Source: Nitrospirae bacterium RBG_16_64_22 (GTDB lineage Bacteria; Nitrospirota; RBG-16-64-22). Taken from it: 40,011 nucleotides of DNA. The notes below the pieces were generated by a model. That model saw only the letters and a program-made list of their open reading frames with translations, made no database searches and was not told the DNA's origin. Positions within the stretch are counted from its first letter, which is position 1, and every line of letters starts with the position of its first letter. The stretch spans positions 1 through 40,011 of the forward strand of contig MHEK01000105.1 of NCBI GenBank assembly GCA_001803795.1. The letters run 5' to 3'. The translations under genes and the position numbers were made by a program. Shown one piece after another: positions 7,171-18,618 of this stretch.

Positions 7171-8838
7171 ATGCGTTCGGATGCAATTAAGAAAGGAATC
7201 GAGCGGGCGCCCCACCGGGGTCTTCTCAAGGCGTGCGGCGTGACCGACGCCGACATGGAGAAGCCGTTCATCGGCGTGGCCAACTCTTATATCGACATCG
7301 TCCCGGGGCACGTCCACCTTCAGGAATTCGGCCGGATCGTCAAGGACGAGATCCGCGCGGCCGGGGGGATGCCGTTCGAGTTCAACACGATCGGCGTCGA
7401 CGACGGGATCGCCATGGGGCACGCCGGCATGCACTACTCCCTGCCCTCCCGGGAGCTGATCGCCGACGCCGTCGAGACGGTGGCGAACGCCCACGCGCTG
7501 GACGGGCTCATCTTCATCACCAACTGCGACAAGATCGTTCCGGGGATGCTCATGGCGGCGATGCGCGTGAACGTCCCGTCGATCCTCGTGTCCGGGGGAG
7601 CGATGGCGGCGGGGCATCTCTCAAACGGCCGCGCGGTGGACCTCATCACGATCTTCGAAGGCGTGGGCGCGCGGATGGCGGGGAAGATCGGGGACGCCGA
7701 GCTCAAGGAGCTGGAGGACAAGGGGTGCCCCACGTGCGGCTCGTGCTCCGGCCTCTTCACGGCGAACTCGATGAACTGCCTGATGGAAGCCCTGGGAATC
7801 GCGCTCCCGGGGAACGGGACGATCCTGGCCGTCGATCCGAGGCGGAAGGACCTGGTCCGGCGCGCCGCGCGGCGGATCGTCGATCTCGTCCGCGACGGCG
7901 TCCGGCCGCGCGACATCGTTACCCGCGAGGCGATCGACAATGCGTTCGCCCTCGACATCGCCATGGGGGGGTCGACGAATACGGTCCTCCACACGATCGC
8001 CATCGCGCACGAGGCTGGGATCGAGTATCCCCTCCGCCGGATCAACGAGCTGGCCGAGAAGGTCCCTCATCTCTGCAAAGTCGCGCCCGCTTCCTCCTGG
8101 CACATGGAGGACGTGGACCGGGCCGGGGGGGTGTCGGCGATCCTAAAGGAGATCTCGCGGAAGAAGGACGTGCTTCGTCTCGACCAGCGGACCGTGACCG
8201 GGAAGACGCTGGGAGAGAACATCGCGGACGCGGGAATCCTCGATCCCGATGTCATCCGGCCGATCGAGAAAGCCCACTCTGAAAGAGGCGGGCTCGCAAT
8301 CCTGTTCGGCAGTCTTGCCCCCGAGGGATCGGTCGTCAAGACGGCCGCCGTCACTCCGGGGATGATGAAGTTCGAGGGGACGGCGGTCATCTTCGAATCG
8401 CAGGAAGAGGCGAACGCGGGAATCCTGGCCGGTAAGGTGAAGGCCGGAGACGTGGTGGTCATCCGCTACGAGGGGCCCAAGGGAGGCCCGGGTATGGTCG
8501 AGATGCTGGCTCCCACGGCGAACATCGTCGGGATGGGGCTTGGCGAGTCGGTCGCCCTCGTCACGGACGGACGGTTCTCCGGCGGCACGCGCGGCGCCTG
8601 CATCGGCCACGTTTCCCCCGAGGCGGCCGAGGGAGGGCCGATCGCCCTGCTCCGGAACGGCGACACGATCCGGATCGACCTCGAGCGGCGGACGCTCGAC
8701 GTGGACGTGAGCGAGGACGAATTGAACGCCCGGCGGGAGTACTGGAAGCCGCCCGCTCCGCGCGTCACTTCGGGCTGGCTCGCCCGCTACGCGAAGATGG
8801 TGACTTCAGGCTCGACGGGGGCGGTGCTGAAGGCGTAA
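7171..8838 (+). CDS. ilvD: Dihydroxy-acid dehydratase
   Basis: [50 protein letters not shown] Shine-Dalgarno 5 nt upstream. Confidence 0.96.
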
Positions 8839-8860
8839 CAACTGGACGGTTGAGATTCCC

Positions 8861-11044
8861 TCATTCCCGCGGAGTCTCGATCGCGAGATGTTCCCGGTCT
8901 TCCGGCCGCGCTTCCTCGGGGGGCGGCGGCATCCGGATGGGCAGCATGATGACGAACGTCGTCCCGCGTCCCGGCGTGCTCTCTACGTCAATCGTACCGG
9001 AGTGCTCCTGAATGAGGCGGTGGACGATGGAGAGGCCGAGCCCCGTCCCCTTCCGGTCTTTGTCCCTTGTCTTCGTCGTGTAGAACGGCGTGAATATCCG
9101 TTCGATCTGGTCGGGGCGTATTCCCTTTCCCGTGTCTGCGATGGTCAGGCGGGCGAAGGGGACGTTCTCCGACACGACGAGCCGCGTGGCGATCGTGATC
9201 CCTCCGCTTCCCTCGACGGCTTCGACGGCGTTCAGGATGAGATTGATCAAGACCTGCCGGATCTTGTCCTCGTCCATGGGGACATGGGGCAGGGACTCGT
9301 CAAGATCGGTCTGGAGTTCGATCGACCGTTCCCGGCACGTGGGCTTGAGAAGGACGACCACGCTCTCGATGATTGTGTTGAGCGGCTGTTTCCTGAGCCG
9401 CGGCGGCTTGGGCCTGCTCAGGTTGATCAGTTCCGTGATCAACCGTTCGATTCGCGCCATTTCCCGGATGGCGGCCTGGTAGTAGGTGCGGACGAAGTCC
9501 TCCTGGGTCCGGATCTGCGGCAGGAGCTGAAGAAACATCTTGATGCTCGTCAGGGGATTGCGGATCTCGTGCGACAATCCCGACACCACGTCTTCGATCC
9601 CCTTGAGCCGATCGATCCGCTCCAATTGTTTTTGGGCGTCCAAGTGGAACTCGTGGAGTCTTGCGTTCTCCATGGCGACCGCCGCCTGGGACGCGAGAGT
9701 CTCCAGATACTTCAGCTCGTCGGCCGTGTACGGCCGCCGGGACTCCTTCTGGCCGATGCCGCAGAATCCGATCAGCCGCCCGTTCTCCTTGTTTGAAGGC
9801 TCGCGGAACGCAAGGAGAAGGGCGAAATCGTCCGCCGCGAAAAGCTGCTCCACGGAACCGGCGGCCTCCTGAAGACGGAGTCCCGGCACCTCTTCGCGAA
9901 GGATGAGGGGGTTCGTTTTCAGGACCTGGCAGACGGCGTGTTCGGGCGAGATTCCTCCGTCCTTGGGCGAGAGACGGGCGGGAGGGTGGGCCGCGGACCG
10001 CCGGAGGTAGCCGGTTGAGTCCTCGACGAACAGCACGCACGACTTCGCGCCCGTGGCTGTCGCGATCGTGGCGGCGAGCTTCTGGCCGATCTCCCTCAGG
10101 TCGAGCATCTGGACGACGGCGCGCGCGAGCTCCGCCAGGGATTGCGTCACCTCGTGGCTCGAGGCGAAGAAGGACCTCGAAACGGCCGACTCGATCCGCG
10201 CCTTGAGGCGGTAGAAGGCCACGGCGATGAGCCCGAACGCCGCCAGAAGGATGGCCGAGAAGCCGGGGTCGATTGCGCCGAAGAAGCGTTTCTGCGCGAA
10301 CAGCGCGATACCGAAGAGCGGGAGAAGGACAAGAAGGAGCGTGACGCCGTACGCAAGCCCCCTCTTCATGATTGTGTGAACGTCCAGAAGGCGGTATCTG
10401 ATCAAGATGTAGCCGTTTGCGGCCGTTACGAGTGGAACGAGGATGTTTCCGTACGGGAGAATGGATATATCGTACCAGAGTGGGAAGTTTGTGCTTCCGC
10501 CGATGTACCCCACGACTGTTGAAATCAGAATGTACTCCAGTTGAGTTCTTCCGATACCAGTGGTTTCCCTTCTTCGCTTGAACATCATGGCCGTCGATAG
10601 GGCCAAGTATGCGAAGAAGTAGGCGAGGTAGAACGGAAAGGCAACTCCAGGCGTCGGCCAGTAGGGGGTGACAGGAGTCTGGTGCGTACCTTGAATGAAG
10701 AAACCGGTCGGATCGAGAAGCAAGAAGAAAACCCCCAGGGAATAACCCGAGGCGAGTAGTTTCGCGTGGTGCTTCGGACGTCCAAAGAGGGTGGTAACGT
10801 GATGATAGTGGAGAACCGGGATCATGGTAGCCCCGGCCATCATCAACCTGGCAAAGAGAAGGGCCTGCGGAACGCTGTCGGCCGTTAGCCAGAGAAAATA
10901 GAAACCGCTCCAGAAAGAAAGACTGACGCAGTAGGCGGCGTACGTACGGTGTCTTGGGTCTTCCGGCTTCTGGGCGAGGACAAATATTCCGAGGAACGTA
11001 TTGATGACCGCAATGACGAGAGCGGTGACTGCAAAGAAGCTCAT
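8861..11044 (-). CDS. Sensor histidine kinase with N-terminal 7TM region, GAF, HisKA and HATPase_c
   Basis: Seven hydrophobic segments at the N-terminus; H-box GLSHEIRNPLTSIKMFLQ; N/G boxes (NLILNAVEAVEG, ADTGKGI, GTGLGLSIVHRL). Confidence 0.92.
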   Translation of the reverse strand: MSFFAVTALVIAVINTFLGIFVLAQKPEDPRHRTYAAYCVSLSFWSGFYFLWLTADSVPQALLFARLMMAGATMIPVLHYHHVTTLFGRPKHHAKLLASGYSLGVFFLLLDPTGFFIQGTHQTPVTPYWPTPGVAFPFYLAYFFAYLALSTAMMFKRRRETTGIGRTQLEYILISTVVGYIGGSTNFPLWYDISILPYGNILVPLVTAANGYILIRYRLLDVHTIMKRGLAYGVTLLLVLLPLFGIALFAQKRFFGAIDPGFSAILLAAFGLIAVAFYRLKARIESAVSRSFFASSHEVTQSLAELARAVVQMLDLREIGQKLAATIATATGAKSCVLFVEDSTGYLRRSAAHPPARLSPKDGGISPEHAVCQVLKTNPLILREEVPGLRLQEAAGSVEQLFAADDFALLLAFREPSNKENGRLIGFCGIGQKESRRPYTADELKYLETLASQAAVAMENARLHEFHLDAQKQLERIDRLKGIEDVVSGLSHEIRNPLTSIKMFLQLLPQIRTQEDFVRTYYQAAIREMARIERLITELINLSRPKPPRLRKQPLNTIIESVVVLLKPTCRERSIELQTDLDESLPHVPMDEDKIRQVLINLILNAVEAVEGSGGITIATRLVVSENVPFARLTIADTGKGIRPDQIERIFTPFYTTKTRDKDRKGTGLGLSIVHRLIQEHSGTIDVESTPGRGTTFVIMLPIRMPPPPEEARPEDREHLAIETPRE

Positions 11045-11048
11045 GATT

Positions 11049-13067
11049 TCAGGCCTTCACGGCGGCAATGAGGATGGCTTGATTTCCGAAGGAGATCCTC
11101 GATGACAAGGGGACCGCTCCCGACGCTTCGAGCAGAGCTTCCAACTCAAGTTGGGAGAAGAAGCGGTAGAGGCCATGGGTTTCCTTGACGGCGATTCCTC
11201 CGGCGTTGTTCAGCAGTGTTCGCGCCTGGTCGATCTGTTCGTGACTCCGGGCTTTCTCCGCGACATTCCGGTATATCTGGGAGCAGTCCGCCATCGGTTT
11301 CAACGTGCTGATCACCATCCGCCCCTCGGGCTTGAGGACTCTGACGAATTCCCTCAGCAGGCCGAGCGGATCATTGAGATACGAGAGCACGAGATTGCAG
11401 ACGATCTGATCGGCCGTGCCGGAGCGGAGCGGGAGAGATGCGTCAAGGTTGCCTTGGATGAATGTGTAAGAACCCGGCGCCGCTTCTCCAGCCGGTCTGC
11501 GCATTGGCTCCAGGGTCTTGCTCGTGTTCATGGCCGTCAGGAGGGCCTCGTGCACGAAATCGATTCCGACGTAAAGAGAAAGAGGGCGTCTCCCTGAGAG
11601 GAAGAAAAAGGCAAGATTGCCCGAGCCGCATCCGGCGTCCAGGAGGATCATAGGTCCTGCGGAGGGGCCGATCATTTCGACGACGTCGCTTGCCAACTGT
11701 TGATAGTCTTCGACTTGCCGGATAAGCGTGAAATCGGATAGATAGGACCTCCAGAATTCTCTCTCGTCTTCCATTCTCTTGTCCATGTGCAATCTCATCC
11801 GGTCCTTTTCGATCCTTCGCTGTGTTACAACTTCCCGCAATGACGGTGATTGAAAAGCGAGAGGGACGGATGGGAGCAGGCTTCGATGTGTTTGCTCAAC
11901 CAGATGTTGAAAGGCAGCGGAAAGGTCCTTCGGATTCTCCTCCAGCCTGTGCATGGACTGATCCAGCAGATACAGAGTCTTGCATTCCGAAGAAATGCTC
12001 TCCAGGGCCAACTTGACCGCATCGAGAGAGACCCATGTATCTCTCAACCCTGCAATGACATGCACGGGGACCTGGGTCGACCGGCTGTCTTCGAGCGTTG
12101 CTTGTAGATTGTGGAAATTGAAGGCGACGGAATTGCCCAGAAAATGGTCGGCTTTTATCGAGTGCCCAAGCACGTTCATGGTTCCGTAGTCATGTCCCCT
12201 CAGGTGGCGATCGACGAGATCTTCCAAGTGGACTGCCGTGAGCGTGGCTTGCAGGTCCACGACGGGTACGAGCAGAGCCAGCGCCCGGATGCGGGGGTCG
12301 CAGCTTGCGGCCTTGAGGGCGGACCGGGCGCCGAGGCTCGCCGCGCAGACGACGATCGGGTACGCCTGGAAGGAGTTCTCGACGTAGTCGAGGGCGGCGT
12401 GGAGGTCCTCCTCGTGCTGGGAGAGGGTGAAGTCGAGGATGCTCCCGTCGCTTTCCCCGACGCTGTCGGTCGTGTCGTACCGGAGGATGTGGAAGCCGTT
12501 CGCGGCGAATGTGTAGGCCGGAAGAAGGGCGGTCGTCTTGTGCTCTCCGTACGCGGGAGGCATGACGACGAACGGCGTGTCGGGCTTGTACATTTCCCCG
12601 ACCGGATGGTCGTAGAACGCGACGATCCTCTTGCCCCGCCGGTTCGCGAACGAGATCAGATCGCTCTGAATGGTCGTCGGGACCTTCCGCCCGCCGATCC
12701 GGCTCCTGTCGAGAAGAAGGTCCGCGAGATGTCGCCGGAGTCTTGTCTTTTCGGGCCCGTCTTCGCCCGCGAACGAAAACCCGTAGCGGCAGGAATTCGT
12801 CTTGGGATCGCGGGCGGACCAGCAAAGCCGGCCGGGAAGCGCGATCCCGTCGTTCCCCGGAATCTTCAGGACGAGGACGCAGTCGGCGAGGTCGACGGGG
12901 GACGAGCACGCGAGGCCGATTCCCCGGTCGCTCACGTCGATCGACGTGCAGGATTGGGGGAGCGGGCGAGGGCGGCCCGGATCCGAGGGAGGCTCAATAG
13001 CGACGGGGACGGACAAGAGAAGGCGCGTGGAAAAGCGCTTCTCTTTTACCCGATTGAGGACGGACAT
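11049..13067 (-). CDS. Tripartite fusion: PilZ domain + LuxD-like acyl-transferase/thioesterase (alpha/beta hydrolase) + class I SAM methyltransferase
   Basis: PilZ motifs RFSTR (RxxxR) and DVSDRGIGL (DxSxxG); LuxD-like NGFHILRYDTTDSVGESDGSI, AASLGARSA, RDTWV, SMHRLEEN; methyltransferase motif I LLDAGCGSGNLAF. Confidence 0.85.
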   Translation of the reverse strand: MSVLNRVKEKRFSTRLLLSVPVAIEPPSDPGRPRPLPQSCTSIDVSDRGIGLACSSPVDLADCVLVLKIPGNDGIALPGRLCWSARDPKTNSCRYGFSFAGEDGPEKTRLRRHLADLLLDRSRIGGRKVPTTIQSDLISFANRRGKRIVAFYDHPVGEMYKPDTPFVVMPPAYGEHKTTALLPAYTFAANGFHILRYDTTDSVGESDGSILDFTLSQHEEDLHAALDYVENSFQAYPIVVCAASLGARSALKAASCDPRIRALALLVPVVDLQATLTAVHLEDLVDRHLRGHDYGTMNVLGHSIKADHFLGNSVAFNFHNLQATLEDSRSTQVPVHVIAGLRDTWVSLDAVKLALESISSECKTLYLLDQSMHRLEENPKDLSAAFQHLVEQTHRSLLPSVPLAFQSPSLREVVTQRRIEKDRMRLHMDKRMEDEREFWRSYLSDFTLIRQVEDYQQLASDVVEMIGPSAGPMILLDAGCGSGNLAFFFLSGRRPLSLYVGIDFVHEALLTAMNTSKTLEPMRRPAGEAAPGSYTFIQGNLDASLPLRSGTADQIVCNLVLSYLNDPLGLLREFVRVLKPEGRMVISTLKPMADCSQIYRNVAEKARSHEQIDQARTLLNNAGGIAVKETHGLYRFFSQLELEALLEASGAVPLSSRISFGNQAILIAAVKA

Positions 13068-13238: not shown

Positions 13239-13826
13239 CTACCCAGGTCCCTTGACCCACCAATCGCTCTTGTCCTTGAACCACCAGAGGGAGGAGTCCG
13301 TCTCCAGGATCGTCTCGGCTAATGCACGGGCCTGGTCGGTGAGAAGGCGCTTCATGGAGAAAGCGAGCCACTCGTCGGCGTACTTGTTTCCCAGGTCCTT
13401 GTACTCCTTGAGGGCCAGGATCATCTCGATCTGGTCCGCGTCATGGGCGAGGCGGGCCTCGGTCGTCTCCCCGGCGTTGTATTCCGCGATGAGAGACTTG
13501 ATCTCTCCGCCGAAGGGGAGCGTTTCGGCGAGGTCGGCAACCGCTTTTTCCTCGTTGGGCACGACGTACTTTTTGTTGACGTAGTTGAGGTCGCCCGTCC
13601 GGGCTTCCGGGAGGTCGTGGAAGAGGCAGAGCTGGACGAGGCGGTCCACGTTCGCGCCGGGCGTGATCTTGCCAAGAACGTACCCGATGCAGGTGGTCCG
13701 AAACGAGTGCTCGGCGACGGATTCGGCCCCGGAGCCCAGGAACTGGAACCCCGACCGGGGGGTCCGTTTGAGCATTCCCGCTTCGAATAGGAAATTGGCC
13801 AAGTTTTCCATCATCTTGGAAGCCAA
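13239..13826 (-). CDS. HD-domain protein (YfbR/HDDC2-like 5'-deoxynucleotidase family)
   Basis: AEHSFRTTCIGYVLG, LCLFHDLPEARTGDL, HDADQIEMILALKEY. Confidence 0.85.
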   Translation of the reverse strand: MASKMMENLANFLFEAGMLKRTPRSGFQFLGSGAESVAEHSFRTTCIGYVLGKITPGANVDRLVQLCLFHDLPEARTGDLNYVNKKYVVPNEEKAVADLAETLPFGGEIKSLIAEYNAGETTEARLAHDADQIEMILALKEYKDLGNKYADEWLAFSMKRLLTDQARALAETILETDSSLWWFKDKSDWWVKGPG

Positions 13827-14920: not shown

Positions 14921-16138
14921 ATGTCGAGACTGGTTCCGCCTCACGGCAGTGACAAACTCAAGCCCTTGCTTCTCTCGGGCGCCGAGCTGAAGGGGGAGCG
15001 GGAGCGGGCCAAGTCGCTCGCCCAGGTCAAGATGACGTCCCGCGAGACGGCCGACCTCATCATGATGGGGATCGGCGCCTTGACACCTCTCGACGGTTTC
15101 ATGGGATACGACGATTGGAAGGGCGTCTGCGACGACTACAAGACGGCAAAGGGCCTCTTCTGGCCGATCCCCTTCACGCTCTCCACGACGGAGGGGCAGG
15201 CGAAGAGCCTCAAGAAGGGCGACGACGTCGCCCTCGTGGACGAGGAGTCGGGCGAGACGATGGGGATCCTCAAAGTGCGCGAGACGTACAAGATCGACAA
15301 GGCCCACGAGTGCAAGCAGATTTTCCGGACGAACGACCCCGCCCACCCAGGCGTCACTCTCGTCATGAAGCAGGAAGAGGTGAACGTCGCCGGATCCGTC
15401 AAGGTCCTCTCCGAGGGGCACTTCCCCGAGACCTACCCCGGCATCTACATGCGCCCCGCCGAGACGCGGGCCCTCTTCGAGGAGAAGGGGTGGAGCCAGG
15501 TGGCGGCGTTCCAGACGCGGAACCCGATGCACCGCTCCCACGAGCACCTGGTCAAGATCGCCATCGAGACGCTGGACGGCGTCCTCATCCACCAGATTCT
15601 GGGCAAGCTCAAGCCGGGAGACATTCCCGCTGACGTCCGCTCGCGGGCCATCAACAAGCTCGTGGAGGACTATTTCGTCAAGGACACTTGCGTCGTGTCC
15701 GGATACCCGATGGACATGCGCTATGCCGGGCCCCGGGAGGCGCTCCTCCACGCTCTGTTCCGCCAGAACTTCGGATGTTCCCACCTCATCATCGGCCGCG
15801 ATCACGCCGGCGTGGGCGACTACTACGGCCCGTTCGACGCCCAGAAGATTTTCGACGAGATCCCCCGGCACTCCCTGGAGATCCAGCCGCTCAAAATCGA
15901 CTGGACCTTCTTCTGCTACAAGTGCGACGGCATGGCCTCGATGAAGACCTGCCCGCACGGCAAGGACGACCGGGTCCTCCTCTCCGGGACCAAGCTTCGG
16001 AAGATGATGTCGGAGGGGGAGGCGGTTCCGCCCGAGTTCAGCCGGCCCGAGGTCGTCGAGATCCTGAAGGCGTACTATGATTCTCTCGAGGAGAAGGTCG
16101 AGATCAAGCTTCACAAGCACACACAAGCCGGCGCCTAG
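14921..16138 (+). CDS. sat: Sulfate adenylyltransferase (ATP sulfurylase)
   Basis: [41 protein letters not shown] motifs; GGAGG upstream. Confidence 0.96.
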
Positions 16139-16260
16139 GCGGGCACGGCGCGAAATCGTCCGTCTGTCAGGAAGGGAGGTGACGGGAAGCCCGATCGGCT
16201 GTTTCTAAACGCCCCGGCGGCGGATGGCCAGCGCTGGGAATTCTTAAGAAGGAGGAAACC

Positions 16261-16695
16261 ATGCCAAGTTTTGTGTACACGGAGAAGTGCGACGGGTGCA
16301 AGGGGCAGGACAAGACGGCCTGCATGTACATCTGCCCGCACGACCTGATGATGCTCGACAAGGGAAAGATGAAGGCGTACAACCAGGAGCCCGAGCAGTG
16401 CTGGGAGTGCTACTCCTGCGTGAAGATCTGCCCCCAGCAGGCGATCGAGGTCCGGGCCTACGCCGATATCGTCCCGATGGGCGGGGCCGTGATTCCTCTT
16501 CGCGGGTCCGACTCCATCATGTGGACCGTCAAGTTCCGCAACGGCCAGGTCAAGCGGTTCAAGTTCCCCACGCGGACCACGGCCGAAGGCTCCGTCGATC
16601 CCTACAAGGGAAAGCCCGAGCCCAAGCTCGAAGACCTGACGAAGCCCGGTTTCTTCACGCACGCGGGCCAGACGCTCCCCACCCTCAAGAAGTAG
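16261..16695 (+). CDS. aprB: Adenylylsulfate reductase subunit beta (AprB)
   Basis: MPSFVYTEKCDGCKGQDKTACMYICPHDLMMLD...CWECYSCVKICPQQAIEVRAYADIVPMGG. Confidence 0.96.
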   Translation: MPSFVYTEKCDGCKGQDKTACMYICPHDLMMLDKGKMKAYNQEPEQCWECYSCVKICPQQAIEVRAYADIVPMGGAVIPLRGSDSIMWTVKFRNGQVKRFKFPTRTTAEGSVDPYKGKPEPKLEDLTKPGFFTHAGQTLPTLKK

Positions 16696-16713
16696 GCGAG
16701 AAGGAGGAATATC

Positions 16714-18618
16714 ATGGCAGAGAAGGGAACGTTCGGTAATCCAGAGGTCGTCGAGATCGAGACCGACCTTCTGATCATCGGCGGCGGCATGGCGGCCTGC
16801 GGCGCAGCGGTCGAAGCGAAGCGCTGGGCGCCCAAAGACATGAAGATCACGCTCGTGGACAAGGCGGCGCTCGACCGGAGCGGCGCCGTGGCCCAGGGGC
16901 TCTCGGCCATCAACACGTACCTTGGGGAGAACGACCCCGCGGACTATGTCAAGATGGTCGCCAACGACCTGATGGGGATCACCCGCGACGACCTCGTCTA
17001 CGACGTCGGCCGTCACGTGGACGACTCGGTCCAGCTCTTCGAGGAGTGGGGCCTTCCGGTCTGGAAGCAGCCGGGCGACGAAGGGAAGTCGCTCAAGGAC
17101 GGCGGTAAGCCGGTCCGGTCCGGCAAGTGGCAGATCATGATCAACGGCGAGTCGTACAAGGTCGTCGTGGCCGAGGCGGCGAAGAAGGCCCTCGGGATGG
17201 AGAACATCTACGAGCGTGTCTTCATCGTGAAGCTCGTCCTCGACGCCAAGAACGACAACCAGATCGCCGCGGCCGTCGGCTTCTCGACCCGCGAGCACAA
17301 GCTGTATATCTTCAAGGCCAAGGCCATGCTCAACGTCTGCGGCGGCGCGGTCAACGTCTTCCGGACCCGGTCCGTGGCCGAGGGAATGGGGCGCGCCTGG
17401 TACCCGGTGTGGAACGCCGGCTCCACGTACGCCATGGCGGCCGAAGTCGGCGCCGAGCTCACGATGATGGAAAACCGGTTCGTGCCCGCCCGGTTCAAGG
17501 ACGGCTACGGCCCGGTCGGCGCGTGGTTCCTCCTCTTCAAAGCCAAGGCGGCGAACGCCCTGGGCGAGAACTACATGGAGAAGAACGCCGATATGCTCAA
17601 GGAGTATCCGCCCTACGGCCTTTCGAAGGTCCCGGCCACCTGCCTCCGTAACCACCTCATGCTGAAGGAGATGAAGGAAGGGCGCGGTCCCATTTACATG
17701 GACACGGTGGCGGCCATGGCCAATCTCTCCAAGACGATGGACGCGAAGCAGGTCAAGCACCTGGAAGCCGAGGCGTGGGAAGACTTCCTCGACATGTGTA
17801 TCGGTCAGGCGGGGCTCTGGGCCGGCATGAACATTCAGCCGGAGAAGTCCCCGTCCGAGCTGATGCCGACGGAGCCGTACCTCCTCGGGTCCCACTCCGG
17901 CTGTGCCGGGATCTGGGTCTCCGGCCCTGAGGACATCGCCCCGAAGGAATGGCAGTGGGGCTACCGGAGCATGACGACGGTCAACGGCCTCTTCACGGCC
18001 GGCGACGGCGTCGGCGCGTCCGGCCACAAGTTCTCCTCCGGCTCGCACGCCGAGGGGCGGATCGCGGCCAAGGCGATGATCAAGTTCGCCCTGGACCACA
18101 AGGACCACAAGCCGTCGCTCGCGAAGAGCACGGCGGAACTGGCTGAGGAGATTTACCTCCCGGTCCGCAACTGGCTGGCGAACAACAGCCTCACCACGGC
18201 GCCGGATATCAACCCGAACTACATCCGGCCGAAGATGCTGCAGGCCCGCCTGCAGAAGATCATGGACGAGTACGTGGCCGGCGTCGCCACATGGTACGTG
18301 ACCAGCGAGAAGATGCTGGAGCGCGGCCTCGAACTGCTGACGATGCTCAAGGAAGATTCGAAGAAGATGGCGGCATCCGACCTCCACGAGCTTCTCCGGG
18401 CGTGGGAGAACTACCACCGGATCGTGACGGCGGAGGCCCACCTGCGGCACACCCAGTTCCGCAAGGAGACGCGGTACCCCGGCTTTACCTACAACGCCAC
18501 GTACCCGAAGCTCGACGAGGAGAACTGGAAGTGCTTCGTCAACTCCCGGATCGATCCCAAGACCGGCGAGTGGACCTGCAAGAAGGTTCCGCACATCGAC
18601 CTGGTGCCGAAGGGCTAA
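16714..18618 (+). CDS. aprA: Adenylylsulfate reductase subunit alpha (AprA)
   Basis: FAD-binding DLLIIGGGMAACGAAVEAKRW; AprA-typical sequence throughout (LSAINTYLGENDPADYVKMVANDLMGI, HSGCAGIWVSGPED). Confidence 0.97.
   Translation: MAEKGTFGNPEVVEIETDLLIIGGGMAACGAAVEAKRWAPKDMKITLVDKAALDRSGAVAQGLSAINTYLGENDPADYVKMVANDLMGITRDDLVYDVGRHVDDSVQLFEEWGLPVWKQPGDEGKSLKDGGKPVRSGKWQIMINGESYKVVVAEAAKKALGMENIYERVFIVKLVLDAKNDNQIAAAVGFSTREHKLYIFKAKAMLNVCGGAVNVFRTRSVAEGMGRAWYPVWNAGSTYAMAAEVGAELTMMENRFVPARFKDGYGPVGAWFLLFKAKAANALGENYMEKNADMLKEYPPYGLSKVPATCLRNHLMLKEMKEGRGPIYMDTVAAMANLSKTMDAKQVKHLEAEAWEDFLDMCIGQAGLWAGMNIQPEKSPSELMPTEPYLLGSHSGCAGIWVSGPEDIAPKEWQWGYRSMTTVNGLFTAGDGVGASGHKFSSGSHAEGRIAAKAMIKFALDHKDHKPSLAKSTAELAEEIYLPVRNWLANNSLTTAPDINPNYIRPKMLQARLQKIMDEYVAGVATWYVTSEKMLERGLELLTMLKEDSKKMAASDLHELLRAWENYHRIVTAEAHLRHTQFRKETRYPGFTYNATYPKLDEENWKCFVNSRIDPKTGEWTCKKVPHIDLVPKG

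Follow-up and report, generated by a model that had tools for sequence, protein, structure and literature searches.

A PilZ, LuxD-type hydrolase and methyltransferase fusion protein paired with a seven-helix histidine kinase in Nitrospirota: a candidate synthase and receptor for a fatty-acid-derived signal

LuxD is the myristoyl-ACP thioesterase of luminous bacteria, and BioC is an acyl-ACP carboxyl methyltransferase that, like the alpha/beta hydrolase BioH, acts on carrier-bound acyl chains. In Ralstonia, the methyltransferase PhcB produces the methyl ester of a 3-hydroxy fatty acid, which is sensed by PhcS, a kinase encoded in the same operon (PMC11960443). In the RpfF/RpfC/RpfG diffusible signal factor system, which is also present in Leptospirillum, the output is an HD-GYP phosphodiesterase (PMC8357829). 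The papers that we found on signalling in Nitrospira and other nitrifiers are concerned mainly with acyl-homoserine lactones. Here, we describe a computational analysis of a gene pair in a 40,011-nucleotide stretch of DNA (the window) from contig C105, part of a 2.38-Mb draft genome of the Nitrospirota. The pair encodes an enzyme composed of PilZ, LuxD-type hydrolase and SAM methyltransferase domains and, directly downstream, a histidine kinase with a seven-helix membrane sensor (Table 1). Judged from sequence, it looks like an undescribed synthase-receptor system for a fatty-acid-derived signal.

The pair resembles PhcB and PhcS in that an enzyme gene adjoins a kinase gene, with the kinase start codon 4 bases after the enzyme stop codon in the window and the same pairing in 49 of 50 loci encoding an intact catalytic triad. 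The likeness is a functional one, that of a synthase to its receptor, and PhcB is likened by description rather than by sequence; the enzyme described here adds a LuxD-type hydrolase and a PilZ domain, and its kinase is of a 7TM-GAF type. Relatives of the window locus share with the RpfF/RpfC/RpfG system the clustering of a putative acyl signal synthase, a sensor kinase and a REC-HD-GYP gene. The predicted window synthase, however, is a LuxD-type alpha/beta hydrolase joined to a methyltransferase and not a crotonase-fold, enoyl-CoA-hydratase-like protein such as RpfF, and the REC-HD-GYP gene of many relatives is not found next to the window pair. Because the synthase differs in fold and in domain order, the pair is a member of neither system. 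With BioC and BioH the enzyme shares a methyltransferase and an alpha/beta hydrolase, but it scores below the BioC cut-off, its hydrolase is closer to LuxD and its context is one of signalling. LuxD is the top match of the hydrolase in both sequence and fold (PF02273, NF052253, PDB 1THT), and the enzyme retains both the unusual nucleophile elbow, A-x-S-L, and the complete triad; unlike LuxD, it is fused to PilZ and methyltransferase domains and paired with a kinase, in an assembly with no LuxC. The original prediction, made from the window sequence, knew of no protein with this order of domains, and we likewise found no description of the architecture in searches of open-access literature; this is weak evidence that the architecture is new to the literature.

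Table 1. Features of the enzyme-kinase pair in the window.
Feature	Position	Strand	Basis
PilZ / LuxD-type hydrolase / SAM methyltransferase fusion gene, 672 aa	11049..13067	minus	ORF, translation, Pfam, AlphaFold2
PilZ domain, residues 10-115, RFSTR (residue 11) and DVSDRG (residue 44)	12723..13040	minus	Pfam, own-genome search, motifs
LuxD-type alpha/beta hydrolase domain, about residues 133-400	11868..12671	minus	PF02273, NCBIfam, 1THT sequence and fold
Ser244 codon, predicted nucleophile (1THT Ser114)	12336..12338	minus	Alignment; invariant in 19 relatives
Asp343 codon, predicted triad acid (1THT Asp211)	12039..12041	minus	Alignment; invariant in 19 relatives
His373 codon, predicted triad base (1THT His241)	11949..11951	minus	Alignment; invariant in 19 relatives
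Class I SAM methyltransferase domain, about residues 453-672, motif LLDAGCGSGN	11052..11711	minus	Pfam; motif residues conserved
Partner histidine kinase, 727 aa, 7TM-GAF-HisKA-HATPase	8861..11044	minus	ORF, Pfam, conserved pairing, fused in L039
HisKA_7TM sensor domain of partner kinase	10379..11020	minus	Pfam; AlphaFold2

The enzyme is encoded by a single ATG-to-stop frame that occupies exactly the interval for which an uninterrupted 672-residue protein had been predicted. Every motif quoted in that prediction is present in the translation, which contains NGFHILRYDTTDSVGESDGSI, AASLGARS, GLRDTWV, QSMHRLEEN and ILLDAGCGSGNLAF. The proposed assignment of three domains also holds, as each scores above its curated Pfam cut-off, and the full-length AlphaFold2 model is confident (mean pLDDT 86.9, pTM 0.85). 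The fusion is neither an assembly join, an explanation that the original prediction had named as its possible undoing, nor a chance frame, because an independent congener MAG carries a full-length copy with 89% identity; the fusion also recurs in other genomes, and the family is present in a complete chromosome. In a third congener, G002, both parts of the enzyme are 95% identical to that of the window but lie in different frames (L056:8973-10929, minus), with a break near residues 195-213 that is either a real frameshift or a fault of assembly; in the other two congeners the gene is intact.

The middle domain matches Acyl_transf_2/LuxD (PF02273) over residues 187-388 (E 1.1e-19, 71.3 bits against a gathering cut-off of 20.3), and LuxD is also its top NCBIfam family (E 9.9e-21). 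In the PDB, the closest sequence (E 3.6e-14) is that of the LuxD thioesterase from Vibrio harveyi, 1THT, which is again the top fold match of the AlphaFold2 model (E 5.9e-16, with a TM-score of 0.82 when normalised on 1THT); the fold search places the hydrolase near lipases and esterases as well. A generic serine hydrolase or peptidase, the outcome that would have spoken against a LuxD-like domain, was rejected since LuxD scores higher in all four comparisons. Counted along the sequence alignment, Ser244, Asp343 and His373 align with positions 114, 211 and 241 of 1THT, which we take to be the LuxD triad, so that all three positions are kept as had been claimed, and the full triad is invariant, together with the SAM motif, in 19 relatives from the window's clade. 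Its profile scores place the enzyme in both the PF02273 branch and the PilZ family. The middle domain is nonetheless a LuxD homologue and not LuxD itself, because it scores 74.4 bits against an NCBIfam equivalog cut-off of 420. The original prediction saw no luxC in the window, and this absence extends to the assembly: no match to the LuxC family was found in G000, the window's assembly, which is 89% complete, or in G003, and for lack of LuxC a role in bioluminescence or as part of a fatty acid reductase is effectively excluded. A plasmid search returned one LuxD record and unrelated methyltransferases.

The N-terminal domain matches PilZ (PF07238, E 1.1e-7, 32.6 bits against a gathering cut-off of 22.5), and the RxxxR and D/NxSxxG motifs for c-di-GMP are present as RFSTR and DVSDRG, at the residues listed in Table 1, in line with the ligand motifs originally reported; the domain is predicted to bind c-di-GMP. 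Several class I methyltransferase Pfam families match within residues 456-651 (best E 2.3e-15). Among the best-scoring described methyltransferases is BioC (E 4.4e-12, 46.3 bits in a protein search, below the TIGR02072 cut-off of 184.95), and there are weak matches to the methyltransferase-like region of fatty acid synthase (E 0.005). The closest relatives of the domain are not informative as to its substrate.

The family is found in the Nitrospirota, where 92 of 396 genomes (24 of 169 genera) have a match at E<=1e-15, mostly over the hydrolase-methyltransferase core, and where it includes the complete chromosome of Ca. Nitrospira defluvii. Among the named relatives outside this phylum, a few Omnitrophota and one Nitrospinota MAG carry it. 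The core is the constant part of the family, and the N-terminus ahead of it ranges from nothing (L040) through one PilZ domain (window, L057) to two (L038) or three (L037), with a REC-PAS-PilZ arrangement in L036, L044 and L045. Of 110 distinct proteins, 61 have the strict PilZ motif pair ahead of the core. Because the core is constant and the N-terminus varies, PilZ is by sequence an accessory part of the family; because many relatives have no PilZ or no strict motif pair, gating by c-di-GMP cannot be general. In L039 the core continues into a 7TM-GAF-HisKA-HATPase kinase, joining enzyme and kinase in one protein of 1641 residues. Several proteins of about 1400 residues were considered as further fusions of this kind and rejected: their kinase HMM matches are weak and internal, the true kinase being encoded by the gene that follows. 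The enzymes of L049, L050 and L051 form a divergent third clade, in which Ser and Asp are kept and His is displaced in the alignment; they are followed by long hybrid kinases without HisKA_7TM.

The partner kinase, which the original prediction did not mention, scores above the Pfam cut-offs for the 7TM sensor (PF16927, 60.8 bits), HisKA (49.6 bits) and HATPase (99.6 bits), and the AlphaFold2 model of its sensor consists of seven long helices (pLDDT 87.1). A fold search with this model returned generic seven-helix receptors, none below E 0.001. The kinase matches PrsK, the XrtA/PEP-CTERM histidine kinase, over residues 264-702, but at 99.1 bits it is far under the TIGR02916 equivalog cut-off of 300, and a kinase of the PrsK/exosortase type was rejected. 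Its homologues lie directly downstream of the enzyme in nearly every locus. From 110 distinct cores, 50 loci had an intact Ser-Asp-His triad and either at least 1.5 kb of downstream sequence or a kinase in view; 49 of these encode a 7TM kinase (48 adjacent, 1 fused), and in the single exception (L054/L115) no kinase is encoded before the contig ends 2.4 kb on. By comparison, a kinase of any sort follows only 2 of the 678 other genes in these loci. The HisKA_7TM domain of the partner kinase is the only one found in the window's assembly, and each of the 4 genomes checked encodes no HisKA_7TM protein other than the partner kinase. The domain is more widespread in the phylum than the enzyme, occurring in 126 of 396 genomes, some of them without the enzyme. 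In L164 (7339-10179, plus) a HisKA_7TM domain is carried not by a kinase but by a PAS-GGDEF-EAL protein; this sensor has therefore also been coupled directly to c-di-GMP turnover. A genome-wide search singled out no cognate σ54 regulator for the window kinase, and such a search is uninformative because the genome carries dozens of these regulators.

The catalytic triad has been lost in part of the family, leaving predicted dead paralogues. In a large Nitrospiraceae clade Asp occupies the nucleophile position and the other two triad residues are missing, and at these loci all 39 adjacent kinases, counted where the flanking sequence gave room, are without the 7TM domain (39/39). Repeated, independent joint losses of triad and 7TM sensor had been expected, but in the tree all forms lacking the Ser (Asn, Gly and Asp) fall into one group (SH-aLRT 98), so that the two losses represent one stepwise history and not repeated evidence. 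In L092, the Ser-to-Asn form, a 7TM kinase is still encoded two genes downstream, beyond an intervening PilZ-KASIII gene. In L160 (a Gly form) and in L162, L163, L165 and L166 (the Asp lineage), a 7TM kinase is encoded elsewhere in the genome, directly preceded by a protein of about 580-600 residues. The C-terminal half of this protein in L160, L162 and L166 matches the acyl-ACP reductase family TIGR04058 (E 5e-21 to 9e-24) and PigE; these matches are below equivalog cut-offs, and we read the proteins as related enzymes. The N-terminus of the roughly 600-residue protein of L166 has a weak match to TIGR02266, a family that also matches the PilZ regions of L048 and L161. The other Gly form, L161, encodes PilZ fused to HMG-CoA reductase (8825-10657, minus; PF00368, E 1.2e-110), directly upstream of a 972-residue kinase with two 7TM matches. 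This protein was considered as a KASIII and rejected, the match being driven by PilZ and the Pfam domains being PilZ and HMG-CoA reductase.

Genes for acyl-carrier metabolism adjoin the pair in several relatives. The order in L040 and L043 is fabF, ACP, enzyme, 7TM kinase, with the genes abutting or overlapping; the small proteins match the PP-binding family (E 3.2e-13 and 3.5e-7), and the FabF proteins score above the fabF equivalog cut-off. Because a higher-scoring FabF is encoded elsewhere in each genome, the FabF and ACP of these loci look dedicated. In the Omnitrophota the pair lies among KAS, FabG, FabA-like and ACP genes; in L074 it is flanked by fabH-fabD-like and fabG-acp-fabF-like genes; and L171 has a KASII, an ACP, a different methyltransferase protein and a 7TM kinase in succession. 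Both KASII and KASIII genes occur in several loci. PilZ fused to a FabH-like KASIII is encoded beside the enzyme and kinase genes in L092 (4243-5838) and L048 (7237-8799), the latter locus having a methyltransferase protein without a detectable hydrolase domain. A σ54 response regulator and a REC-HD-GYP protein are encoded after the kinase in most Asp-form loci and in several intact loci. In the window itself no response regulator, HD-GYP, ACP or KAS gene is adjacent to the pair. A gene for an HD_3/YfbR-like hydrolase lies 171 bases upstream of the enzyme on the same strand (13239-13826, minus) and is present in both congeners; it is probably outside the system, because none was seen beside the enzyme in more distant relatives. 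Elsewhere in the window (14921-18618, plus), an ATP sulfurylase gene identified by Pfam is followed by two ORFs that by eye resemble adenylylsulfate reductase subunits B and A, and these genes look like dissimilatory sulfur metabolism in this Nitrospirota genome.

These observations suggest a model in which the enzyme and the adjacent kinase (13067-8861, minus) are a signal synthase and its receptor. The LuxD-type Ser-Asp-His hydrolase would take an acyl chain off acyl carrier protein or a related thioester, and an acyl thioester is quite probably its substrate. The methyltransferase would then either cap the acid set free, to form a fatty-acid methyl ester, or methylate the acyl product in some other way; a methyl ester as the specific product is a doubtful refinement of the model. 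The N-terminal PilZ domain would make the output of the enzyme depend on c-di-GMP, and the seven-helix membrane domain of the downstream kinase would detect the enzyme's product. In relatives, the REC-HD-GYP phosphodiesterase and σ54 regulator encoded after the kinase could close a loop back onto PilZ. We infer, then, acyl-ACP as the substrate, a methylated acyl compound as the product and this product as the ligand of the kinase. The original guess at a lipid signal, which is still a matter of inference, gains independent support from the pairing with a 7TM kinase, from the ACP and ketoacyl synthase genes of two loci and from the HD-GYP outputs of relatives. The model also draws on the single enzyme-kinase protein of L039, on the fatty-acid synthesis genes around the Omnitrophota pairs, on the missing 7TM sensors beside enzymes with a lost triad and on the acyl-ACP-reductase-like proteins that precede 7TM kinases in the Ser-loss lineage. 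Against it count the single origin of the triad and 7TM losses, the 7TM kinase of L092, the HisKA_7TM proteins of genomes that have no such enzyme, and the absence of regulator, HD-GYP, ACP and KAS genes next to the window pair. Taken as a whole, the model is the reading that we favor, with modest confidence.

Part of this evidence would also suit a cytoplasmic sensor-partner in place of a maker of a diffusible signal: the protein would bind c-di-GMP together with an acyl ligand and regulate the kinase through direct contact, its catalysis being minor or serving as a reset. Enzyme and kinase are fused in L039, REC and PAS domains have been added in relatives, and the loci with a degenerate triad keep the kinase pairing though the membrane sensor has been lost (39/39), as would be expected of protein-protein input. 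Mere binding, however, does not need the triad and SAM motif that are invariant in the window's clade, and the apparently dedicated FabF and ACP genes of L040 and L043 suggest a biosynthetic product; we regard such a role as unlikely. A different product would leave the circuit otherwise unchanged: KASII and KASIII genes in several loci and the weak match to the fatty acid synthase region are consistent with a C-methylated keto-acyl or other polyketide-like compound in place of a carboxyl methyl ester. We consider this improbable given that BioC, below its cut-off, is among the best-scoring described methyltransferases, and for the same reason sequence alone does not decide between a methyl ester and C-methylation.

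Those two are the main rivals of the model; two further readings dispense with a dedicated signal or with signalling altogether. The enzyme might belong to lipid metabolism, remodelling or releasing fatty acids in response to c-di-GMP while the kinase senses the state of the membrane, as the proximity of the hydrolase fold to lipases and esterases and the occurrence of HisKA_7TM kinases without the enzyme would allow; neither the one-to-one pairing and the L039 fusion nor the association of such kinases, at other loci, with proteins resembling acyl-ACP reductase is readily explained in this way, and we find it distinctly improbable. In coupling an alpha/beta hydrolase with a methyltransferase that matches BioC, and in adjoining FabF and ACP genes in two loci, the enzyme also recalls a BioH-BioC-like fusion for biotin (pimelate) synthesis. 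This is extremely unlikely: BioC scores in the genome search range from 48.8 to 31.6 bits against the cut-off of 184.95, other methyltransferases in the same genomes equal or exceed that of the enzyme, BioF is encoded elsewhere in 9 of 9 genomes, and the hydrolase resembles LuxD and is encoded among signalling genes.

Beyond the pair itself, we tentatively propose, at somewhat short of even confidence, that the HisKA_7TM kinases of the Nitrospirota and some neighbours may be receptors for a family of acyl-carrier-protein-derived signals. Each would be paired with an interchangeable acyl-releasing enzyme, whether a LuxD-type hydrolase with methyltransferase, an acyl-ACP-reductase-like protein or a KASIII, many of them bearing PilZ, in an undescribed form of c-di-GMP-coupled cell-cell signalling in nitrite-oxidising Nitrospira and their relatives. 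If the synthase-receptor model is true, a likely c-di-GMP receptor would be part of the enzyme responsible for the signal itself, and seven-helix kinases, a broad family, would gain a suggested class of ligand. The pair, present in complete genomes such as that of Ca. Nitrospira defluvii, would moreover provide nitrite oxidisers, and relatives of theirs not yet in culture, with a signalling circuit of their own that is directly testable.
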